Part shown: positions 10,895-39,994 of the stretch, piece by piece
How the letters are laid out: each line of letters begins with the position of its first letter
Numbering within the stretch: position 1 is the stretch's first letter
Assembly (NCBI RefSeq): GCF_029910215.1
Contig: NZ_CP110395.1
Span: 3,782,001 to 3,846,000, forward strand
Source: Paraburkholderia sp. D15
GTDB lineage: Bacteria; Pseudomonadota; Gammaproteobacteria; Burkholderiales; Burkholderiaceae
DNA: 64,000 nucleotides
Reading direction: 5' to 3'
Program-made: the position numbers and the translations under genes
The notes under the pieces: model-generated
Seen by the model: only the letters and a program-made list of their open reading frames with translations
The model's database searches: none
Told to the model about the DNA's origin: nothing

Positions 10895-11028
10895 CGCAAA
10901 AGTTGGGCGAAAAACGTTTCAGGGCATTGCAAACAGACAAAGACGCGCCGGCGAACGCCGCACGCAGCGACGCTCGCGCACCGCTCCAACCCGCGAGCGG
11001 CGCAACGGAAACGCAGATGACTATCTGC

Positions 11029-11219
11029 ACATCTTCTTCCATCCGGACTGTGACCGTCGGCTCTGGCTTCTCACCAGATCTGCTGACCCCGCTGCGTGTT
11101 TTTCGATTCGTTGCCGACTCGAACGATCACGCGATGCGGGCGCTCGCGGGCTCACCGGCTCGCGCTTGTCGCGCTGCCGGCATACCGCCGGTGGGGAATT
11201 TCGCCCCGCCCTGAAGACG
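11029..11219 (-). ncRNA. FMN riboswitch (RFN element)
   Basis: On the minus strand the conserved core GGGCGAAATTCCCCACCGGC (about 11207-11185) is followed by GGTATGCCGGC and, after a long variable arm, GAGCCGACGGT and CAGTCCGGATGGAAGAAGAT (11050-11031). The closing P1 stem pairs TCTTC (11217-11213) with GAAGA near the 3' end. It lies upstream of ribB, leaving about 135 bases for an expression platform. That stretch holds GCAGAT-AGTC-ATCTGC (about 11013-11028), but no clear U-tailed terminator, so the switch may act on translation. Confidence 0.95.
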
Positions 11220-11355
11220 CACTGATTGCCGGATCGACCGGCCGGCAAAGCATACAGGAGTCACACCGCGCCTGCAGCGCAACCCCCACGGTTCAGACGG
11301 ATATCTCTAAATGCTCGCGAGCGTATCCGTCCGGGTTAAAACGAGAAGATAGCGA

Positions 11356-38507: not shown

Positions 38508-38660
38508 AACGTCCGGTGGTCTGCCGGAAAAGTCTCGCGATCGGCGGCGCAAACCGGGCGCGAATCGACGTTTTTTGACTTCATGCACCGCCCAGAAACG
38601 GAAGTTCCGCGAGGCAAGCAGCGGACAAGATCGCTGGGCGAAAGATCGGCGGGACGGGCG

Positions 38661-38749
38661 AAAAAAAACCCGAACGAGCGGTTCGGGTTTAATCCACCAA
38701 AGGAGGAGGTGGAGGAGACAGCGGAGGTTGCACACTGCTGCAACCGATG
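38661..38749 (-). ncRNA. Candidate small RNA with anti-Shine-Dalgarno loop
   Basis: An independent transcription unit of about 89 nt with no credible reading frame. It has three hairpins. First, GGTTGCA-GCAGTG-TGCAACC (38745-38726). Second, CCACC-TCCTCCTTT-GGTGG (38712-38694), whose loop displays UCCUCCUUU. Third, a terminator, AAACCCGAAC with GTTCGGGTTT (38690-38666), ending in eight T. The stretch before hairpin 2 has another TCTCCTCC. CCUCCUUU is identical to the 3' tail of bacterial 16S rRNA, so the RNA could bind mRNA ribosome sites. I recall an Rfam family called Betaproteobacteria toxic small RNA; whether this is a member is unchecked. Confidence 0.75.
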
Positions 38750-38755
38750 AAGACG

Positions 38756-38784
38756 ATTATATGAGTCACCCTTGTGCGACGCAA
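38756..38784 (-). promoter_or_regulatory. Promoter of the candidate small RNA
   Basis: TTGCGT (38784-38779) and a perfect TATAAT (38761-38756) are exactly 17 bases apart. The predicted start is near 38749. Confidence 0.75.
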
Positions 38785-38790
38785 GAACAT

Positions 38791-38808
38791 TTGCATTGCG
38801 AAATGCAA
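38791..38808. promoter_or_regulatory. Inverted repeat just upstream of the small-RNA promoter
   Basis: TTGCATTGCGAAATGCAA has 7-base arms and a four-base centre and ends six bases from the -35 box, so it could bind an activator or repressor of the small RNA. The stretch from 38809 to 39080 is AT-rich, with a TACAAT box at 39039-39044 that may drive the OsmC gene. I see nothing else in it. Confidence 0.45.
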
Positions 38809-39080: not shown

Positions 39081-39503
39081 ATGGAATGCAAAGTAAGCTG
39101 GATGGGTCAGGACGGCATGGCGTTCGCGGCCGAAACGGGCAGCGGCCATCTGGTCGCCATGGACGGCGCGCTGGAAGGCGGCGGCCGCAATCTGGCGCCG
39201 CGTCCGATGGAAATGGTGCTGCTCGGCACTGGCGGCTGCACCGCCTATGACGTCGTGATGATCCTGAAAAAGAGCCGTCAGGAAATCGCCGGCTGTTCGG
39301 TGACGCTGAAAGCCGAGCGCGCCAGCGAAGATCCGAAGGTTTTCACCAAAATTCACTTCCACTTCACGGTGACAGGCAAGAACCTGAACCCGGCCACGGT
39401 GGAGCGCGCGATCAATCTGTCGCACGACAAATACTGTTCGGCCTCGATCATGATCGCGAAAACCGCCGAACTGACGCATTCGTTCGACATCGTCGCGGGT
39501 TGA
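39081..39503 (+). CDS. OsmC-family protein (YhfA-like)
   Basis: A 140-residue OsmC/Ohr-fold protein. The two redox cysteines are in LLGTGGCTAYDV and KYCSASIMI, so a peroxidase-like thiol chemistry is possible. The overall pattern, starting MECKVSWMGQDGMAF, resembles the YhfA group rather than Ohr. The ATG at 39081 has GGAG at 7 bases; the open frame upstream lacks homology. It is convergent with the RNase P RNA gene. Confidence 0.9.
   Translation: MECKVSWMGQDGMAFAAETGSGHLVAMDGALEGGGRNLAPRPMEMVLLGTGGCTAYDVVMILKKSRQEIAGCSVTLKAERASEDPKVFTKIHFHFTVTGKNLNPATVERAINLSHDKYCSASIMIAKTAELTHSFDIVAG

Positions 39504-39575: not shown

Positions 39576-39994
<419 letters not shown>

Follow-up and report, generated by a model that had tools for sequence, protein, structure and literature searches.

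A candidate PhaR operator over the -35 box of an NcS27-type small RNA gene upstream of rplM in Paraburkholderia sp. D15

Small RNAs (sRNAs) of the Rfam family RF02278 were named after the growth inhibition they caused in Escherichia coli when cloned (via the citing papers PMC4603805 and PMC5688073), and members have since been studied in their own hosts, among them NcS27 of Burkholderia cenocepacia J2315 and S17 of Bordetella pertussis. Here, we describe a member of this family in Paraburkholderia sp. D15, encoded on the minus strand upstream of rplM in a 64,000-nt stretch of contig NZ_CP110395.1 (assembly GCF_029910215.1, positions 3,782,001 to 3,846,000; hereafter the window, whose own numbering is used throughout), and a site over its -35 box that resembles the operators of PhaR, a repressor that leaves DNA as polyhydroxybutyrate (PHB) accumulates. 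The published work drawn on also includes PMC7011215 and PMC9049629.

For NcS27, a start site and a processing site were located by differential RNA sequencing and the 3' end was confirmed by rapid amplification of cDNA ends; its level rises 9.7-fold in biofilm, 2.4-fold in stationary phase, 3.9-fold upon starvation and 4.3-fold in glucose medium, its overproduction slows planktonic growth and antisense silencing speeds it up, the effect on biofilm not being significant, and it is predicted to pair with ribosome-binding sites (PMC5688073). A review holds that NcS27 regulates a metabolic shutdown upon nutrient deprivation, gives its predicted targets as amino-acid and carbohydrate transport and metabolism or catabolism, and states that growth is slowed by overproduction on certain substrates only (PMC10987360). 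S17 binds Hfq and represses BP2158; its short form is an RNase E product with an Hfq-dependent level, and RNA-seq of a deletion strain showed 92 genes up (91 in the introduction of the paper), of which 70 carry matching sequence at the ribosome-binding site or close to it, while overproduction of S17S in E. coli BL21 left exponential growth unimpaired and made the entry into stationary phase only modestly slower (PMC11722255). The authors link S17 to the Bvg state via a postulated repressor (PMC11722255). Transcription, processing and a growth effect thus have experimental support in relatives, as have, for S17, Hfq binding and one repressed target (PMC5688073, PMC11722255).

PhaR itself has been studied in other hosts. 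The Herbaspirillum seropedicae protein, PhbF, is a repressor, as seen with phaP1 and phbF reporters, and also binds to PHB granules; footprints show that it protects the motif TG[N]TGC[N]3GCAA (PMC3206438). In Sinorhizobium meliloti, the consensus core is YGCRNYGCR, and PhaR gave gel shifts with several promoters of this kind, the one of the sRNA gene mmgR among them (PMC12542648). The PhaR-MmgR pair is the nearest precedent for what we propose: MmgR is likewise a short trans-acting, Hfq-dependent sRNA, repressed by PhaR (AniA) and with a gel-shifted TGC-RNY-GCA promoter site, but it belongs to the alphaproteobacterial family alpha-r8 and tunes the amounts of PHB and phasin (PMC8401924, PMC12542648). 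A layout of RF02278 and PhaR would parallel this one from the Alphaproteobacteria.

We consider it likely, with a probability of roughly three in four, that the window sRNA is an NcS27-type RF02278 sRNA under PHB/PhaR control that damps the translation of chosen, mainly nutrient-use mRNAs. The RNA family, its structure, promoter and gene order, the operator-like site, the match of that site to phaP and the association with PhaR-bearing genomes are all there to be read in the sequence. The promoter is the TTGCGT-17-TATAAT proposed by the original prediction, a reading of the window made from its letters alone, and direct reading of the minus strand agrees: a -35 box TTGCGT at 38784-38779, a 17-bp spacer and a -10 box TATAAT at 38756-38761. 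Over the -35 box lies CTTGCGTCGCACAAG (38771-38785), whose core TGC-GTC-GCA (38775-38783) fits YGCRNYGCR, the Sinorhizobium consensus. The inverted repeat predicted to abut the -35 box is present at 38791-38808, with 7-bp arms 4 nt apart. As to the suggestion that regulation acts through this repeat, control next to the -35 box stands, but the likely element is the PhaR-type site over the box, the repeat itself carrying a second PhaR-type core of the Sinorhizobium consensus, CGCAATGCA on the minus strand (38792-38800). The two cores are 17 bp apart, centre to centre; S. meliloti phaP1 has two PhaR sites 18 bp apart that flank its -35 box (PMC12542648). A second core of the form CGCRNTGCA occurs in 6/17 Burkholderia-group loci (L034, L037, L039, L042, L043 and L049) and not in the other 11.

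The genome of strain D15 has one PhaR gene (TIGR01848, 153.2 bits), and two paralogues of the sRNA in it (L001 and L002) carry the exact PhbF consensus over their -35 boxes; in many relatives, the -35 box is set in CTTGC-N3-GCACAA or a near variant. The 12-mer TTGTGCGACGCA has three copies in 8.3 Mb: the first is in the sRNA promoter, the second lies about 240 bp ahead of the phaP phasin domain, and the third falls within long open frames; the reversed pattern has four. An exact search for CTTGCRNYGCACAA returned two sites in the genome, the second inside long open frames (L116). The locus resembles the described PhaR/PhbF regulon in its operator core, the placement of the core over the promoter and a PhaR-bearing host, and differs from it in that the published targets, in the parts of the literature covered, comprise mmgR and genes for PHB, exopolysaccharide, carbon metabolism and other functions, with no RF02278 sRNA named.

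Across the Burkholderiales, the core is associated with PhaR-bearing genomes. In a sample of 300 genomes, 203 have a match to TIGR01848, and those outside the 203 are called PhaR-less here. We compared 112 RF02278 loci among the matches listed, 38 from PhaR-less and 74, mostly the best-scoring ones, from PhaR-bearing genomes, with a sub-threshold copy (L004) excluded. TGCN3GCA lies within 150 nt upstream in 62 of the 74 PhaR-bearing and 4 of the 38 PhaR-less loci (Fisher 2.5e-14), and YGCRNYGCR in 63/74 and 1/38 (1.3e-18), although these P values assume independent loci, yet the loci are related, and one of the 63 (L210) matches in a transcribed 5' hairpin and not in the promoter. Counted by genome, TGCN3GCA is found in 55/63 and 4/29; by locus but within 350 nt, the counts are 65/74 and 7/38. 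Within 150 nt, control spacings of 2, 4 and 5 gave 1, 5 and 2 of the 74 loci, whereas a spacing of 1 gave 20 and the inverted order GCAN3TGC 13, both with 0/38 in PhaR-less loci; for YGCRNYGCR, other spacings gave 0-12 of 74.

Within families, the core was found in 8/8 PhaR-bearing and 0/1 PhaR-less loci of f4, 5/7 and 0/1 in f10, 1/2 and 1/5 in f43, and 1/1 and 1/1 in f36, where the PhaR-less genome is 85% complete. In genus g105, PhaR is present in 7/8 genomes, and the six of these with the sRNA have the core either exactly (four) or one letter off (two), while the PhaR-less genome (G296, 100% complete) has kept the sRNA with no trace of the core by eye. A further sample, whose genomes may overlap in part with the first, comprised 80 rplM loci from GTDB species genomes, 45 of them chosen by the core pattern TCTCCTCC[AG][CT] upstream of rplM; 44 of these have the sRNA and its terminator (L089 excluded), and 33 of the 44 have TGCN3GCA within 200 nt.

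The same site is found at phasin promoters. Of 30 phasin loci, two of which (L265 and L268) are cut by contig ends, 29 have TGCN3GCA (58 sites) and all 30 have YGCRNYGCR in the 350 nt ahead of the phasin domain; control spacings of 2, 4 and 5 are found in 0, 3 and 4 of the 30 loci, and spacings of 1 and 6 in 15 each. The inner triplet is RNY at 62/68 sRNA sites and 51/58 phaP sites, and at both kinds of site the 3' flank is most often CAA or GCA. Among the 51 PhaR-bearing loci with TTGCN3GCA, 43 have a -10-like hexamer (at least 4/6) 16-18 nt from TTGCNN, 36 of them at 17; the core therefore lies over the -35 box, where a repressor would act.

Several observations weigh against PhaR control of the sRNA, besides the relatedness of the loci and the misplaced L210 match. 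The window site is one letter off the PhbF consensus TG[N]TGC[N]3GCAA, and TGNTGCNNNGCAA is not enriched in the genome (222 sites against 211 for the reversed pattern); as CTTGCRNYGCACAA with at most one mismatch likewise gave 52 matches against 112 for a control pattern, genome-wide motif counting is uninformative here. No TGCN3GCA is present in the 1.5 kb upstream of phaR in this genome, and the PhaR site of Cupriavidus has been described as unrelated to that of Paracoccus (PMC3206438). Most of the PhaR-less loci belong to families f15, f29, f33, f35, f43, f47 and f50, and the promoters of PhaR-less loci appear richer in AT. Six PhaR-bearing loci (L006, L014, L030, L215, L226 and L231) have neither core, and 11 of the 44 rplM-linked loci lack TGCN3GCA within 200 nt, including the Burkholderia-type L045, L047 and L049; since all three of these are without the -35 core, NcS27 as studied experimentally may lie outside PhaR control.

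These points bear on how else the locus could be read. The sRNA could be the same and its -35 site be read by another regulator, or have been inherited as part of the promoter in clades that happen to carry PhaR as well, which would fit the clustering of PhaR-less loci in few families and the Burkholderia-type NcS27 promoters, where the core is lost and NcS27 is expressed all the same (PMC5688073). We regard this as unlikely, as phaP promoters show the same exact spacing, the same RNY interior and the same two most frequent 3' flanks, the core is common to the gel-shifted S. meliloti sites (PMC12542648), and the core is present in all eight PhaR-bearing loci of f4 and absent from its single PhaR-less locus; in genus g105, the six PhaR-bearing sRNA genomes have it exactly (four) or with one letter changed (two), and no trace of it is visible by eye in the PhaR-less genome. 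Less likely again is that PhaR plays a minor part at the locus, with growth-phase transcription, protection by Hfq and processing by RNase E as the main determinants of the sRNA level. The rise of NcS27 under the four conditions given above (PMC5688073) and the Hfq dependence and RNase E origin of the short form of S17 (PMC11722255) speak for such a scheme, but 33/44 rplM-linked relatives keep TGCN3GCA within 200 nt and the authors of the S17 study themselves postulate a repressor (PMC11722255).

The original prediction suggested that the RNA could sequester ribosome-binding sites broadly, and in the strongest form of this idea the RNA would be a general 16S decoy whose loop competes for the Shine-Dalgarno sequences of most mRNAs, acting as a toxin or as a brake on translation at large. 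In favour of this, CCUCCUUU in the loop is identical to the 16S end, the family was named for the inhibition of E. coli growth upon cloning (PMC4603805, PMC5688073), and the attenuation of growth by NcS27 overproduction (PMC5688073) is a counterpoint to selective action. Nevertheless, we consider a general decoy very improbable: the mild effect of S17S overproduction, with exponential growth of E. coli BL21 unimpaired, and the rise of about 92 genes upon S17 loss (PMC11722255) disfavour a broad 16S mimic, the effect of NcS27 overproduction depends on the substrate (PMC10987360), and three of three copies in genus g2 are without CU-rich loop words. Pairing with ribosome-binding sites is the part of the earlier claim that is supported, through the NcS27 predictions, the RNA-seq of the S17 deletion and one direct target test; the published data do not bear out a broad 16S mimicry.

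Turning to the RNA that would be controlled in this way, the predicted transcript is 89 nt (38661-38749, minus strand), with a 5' end at C38749 or A38748, as judged from promoter spacing, T run and fold. The original prediction of about 89 nt with three hairpins holds, with perfect arms of 7, 6 and 10 bp: a 5' hairpin GGUUGCA/UGCAACC (38726-38745), which lies outside the RF02278 match; hairpin 2, UCCACC-UCCUCCUUU-GGUGGA, found by fold and repeat search (38693-38713); and a terminator stem (38666-38690) that, with the eight U encoded by the predicted T run (38668-38661), forms an intrinsic terminator at 38661-38690, all on the minus strand. The fold is -34.3 kcal/mol against -18.67 +/- 2.75 for 200 shuffles, none of which was as good (z -5.68). 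Two CU-rich stretches lie before and inside hairpin 2, the first of the two hairpins of the RF02278 match. Site 1, UCUCCUCC at 38711-38718, is the second CU-rich word that had been placed ahead of that hairpin; it is partly unpaired and complementary to GGAGGAGA. Site 2 is the loop itself, UCCUCCUUU at 38699-38707, for which identity with the 3' end of 16S rRNA had been claimed and applies to the 8-mer CCUCCUUU. The pattern GGCTGGATCACCTCCTTTCT of the 16S 3' end has seven exact copies in the genome, which we take to be 16S genes, and the loop 8-mer is thus a 16S-tail word.

Membership of the Rfam entry for a Betaproteobacteria toxic small RNA, raised in the original prediction, was confirmed by a covariance search, in which RF02278 matched 38660-38720 on the minus strand with 71.7 bits (gathering 50, E 1.6e-12). 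The RNA has the class features, two adjacent hairpins of which the second is an intrinsic terminator, and the class is already known and partly characterised; the matched double-hairpin core is probably close to the processed form of relatives. The proposal of an independent sRNA is supported. A leader of rplM is rejected in view of the terminator of the sRNA and of the separate promoter-like site of rplM, TTGACT-18-TATAAT at 38507-38478, that had also been predicted. A stock sigma-70 scan omits the sRNA promoter because TTGCGT matches three of six consensus letters and the scan has a threshold of four.

The downstream neighbour is rplM (ribosomal protein L13, Pfam PF00572; 37928-38356, minus strand), and the divergent upstream neighbour at 39081-39503 (plus strand), the counterpart of BCAL3349, is a gene that we presume to be OsmC-like. 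Convergent with the latter is rnpB (RNase P RNA class A, 39577-39990, minus strand, 290 bits), and an FMN riboswitch lies farther away at 11027-11222 (minus strand, 96.5 bits). In the rplM sample, the OsmC-like gene is on the far side of the sRNA in 44/44 loci with sRNA and terminator; at the other 35 loci and at L089, the DNA examined contains nothing that reaches the gathering score of RF02278, and the OsmC-like gene is present at 20 of these 35. Some of them are rearranged or short of upstream DNA: L040 is rearranged, with no OsmC match and homology to the window that stops about 130 bp upstream of rplM, and little upstream DNA was covered for L038 and L060.

The window sRNA is very probably the orthologue of NcS27, judging from a sequence comparison in which three Burkholderia relatives (L045, L047 and L049) stood in for J2315. 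NcS27 is 92 nt long and encoded on the complement strand between BCAL3348a and BCAL3349, in the orientation -> <- -> (PMC4603805). The RNA in the three relatives, counted from the base that matches C38749, is also 92 nt, and the published correction of the BCAL3349 start (3666923 to 3666965, 42 nt; PMC4603805) fits Met15 of the OsmC frame in L047, where the opposite strand has, among several open frames, one of 102 codons between the sRNA and rplM. Gene order, orientation, predicted length and this start correction thus agree. The two RNAs are alike in family, in a double hairpin with a 5' extension and in gene order and orientation by BCAL3349, and similar in length (92 against a predicted 89 nt), but the -35 PhaR-type core is intact in the window and degraded in the Burkholderia-type relatives. 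L210 also lacks a -35 PhaR-type core; its paralogue L209, from the same genome, retains one, and L010 is one letter off. S17 resembles the window RNA in the kind of its CU-rich 5' end (one family member is given with a 2-nt mismatch; PMC11722255), in its terminator and in a -35 box, TTGCAT, with a 17-bp spacer, and it occurs in a long and an RNase E-processed short form, which the window RNA may have as well; it differs in its long form of 190 nt and its tie to the Bvg state through the postulated repressor.

RF02278 is widespread in the order: 188 of the 300 sampled genomes have a match at E <= 0.001 and 114 have one over the cut-off. The D15 genome has four matches, three above the cut-off; the fourth (L004, G000 C2:2789746-2789813, 42.1 bits), with no PhaR-type core at its promoter by eye, is perhaps a diverged paralogue. 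In family f8, the matches listed number 9 in G007, 8 in G056, 8 in G178, 3 in G209 and 5 in G239, with close tandem pairs among those of G007, G209 and G239. L089, from a Candidatus Protistobacter heckmanni metagenome-assembled genome, has no RF02278 match and is an apparent dead copy, in which the operator-like site and the 5' end of the sRNA are left and hairpin and terminator are gone; L109 has an altered hairpin.

For the comparison of structures, an alignment (A1) of the window with 39 of the 45 rplM-linked loci was made, L052, L064, L067, L088, L089 and L109 being removed by hand. As the loci were picked with the site-1 pattern, site 1 is bound to be invariant in A1; in a less biased sample of 111 covariance-model hits, the window copy excluded, 104 have UCUCCUCC and 98 have CCUCC in the loop region, so that the two are kept about equally well. 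RNAalifold on A1 (40 sequences) recovered only the terminator stem, with double changes in 4/6 of its pairs, and hairpin 2 was missed, probably because gaps shift it. When the 108 distinct 5' ends were folded singly, 105 formed a stem of 4 bp or more that begins at nt 7-14, with a register that differs between sequences, and the hairpin-2 stem occurs in relatives as UCCACC/GGUGGA, UCCAUGU/AUAUGGA, CUAUCC/GGAUAG and UCCAAUU/AAUUGGA. In all three loci of genus g2, the loop region is CCCAAACAU, without a CU-rich word, while site 1 is retained, so that the loop alone is not the heart of the RNA; these loci (L201-L203) and L105 retain UGUCUCCUCC and have a loop that is not CU-rich (CCCAAACA).

In the mechanism we propose, PhaR would sit on the TGC-RNY-GCA site over the -35 box and repress the promoter when PHB is low. 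When excess carbon is stored as PHB, PhaR would move to the granules and the sRNA would be made, from which the processed double-hairpin form would then arise. Its two CU-rich stretches, together with Hfq, would pair with the purine-rich ribosome-binding sites of chosen mRNAs and lower their translation, with the outcome that nutrient use would slow when stores are full or growth stops. Here, we infer the binding of PhaR to the sRNA promoter and its control by PHB, as well as the target set in this organism. Almost as probable, in our estimate, is the wider proposition that RF02278 sRNAs across the Burkholderiales form the RNA arm of the PhaR regulon, in which PHB would titrate PhaR and thereby release multicopy sRNAs directed against ribosome-binding sites that cut nutrient uptake and catabolism. 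As a guess, PhaR would then be a candidate for the repressor postulated for S17 in Bordetella.

A search of literature listings and of passages from the main papers, with most subscription papers, including the 2019 NcS27 paper, outside its reach, returned no statement of PhaR controlling RF02278 RNAs. The study by Sass in 2017 left the control of sRNA accumulation in B. cenocepacia open, and its Fig. S3 has an upstream motif shared by three of four homologues (PMC5688073). We believe that the operator evidence names a testable regulator, PhaR, and a testable signal, PHB, for the control of the sRNA and ties a widespread sRNA family to carbon storage. It would also shift the emphasis for these RNAs from a 16S-mimicking toxin to a metabolic brake.
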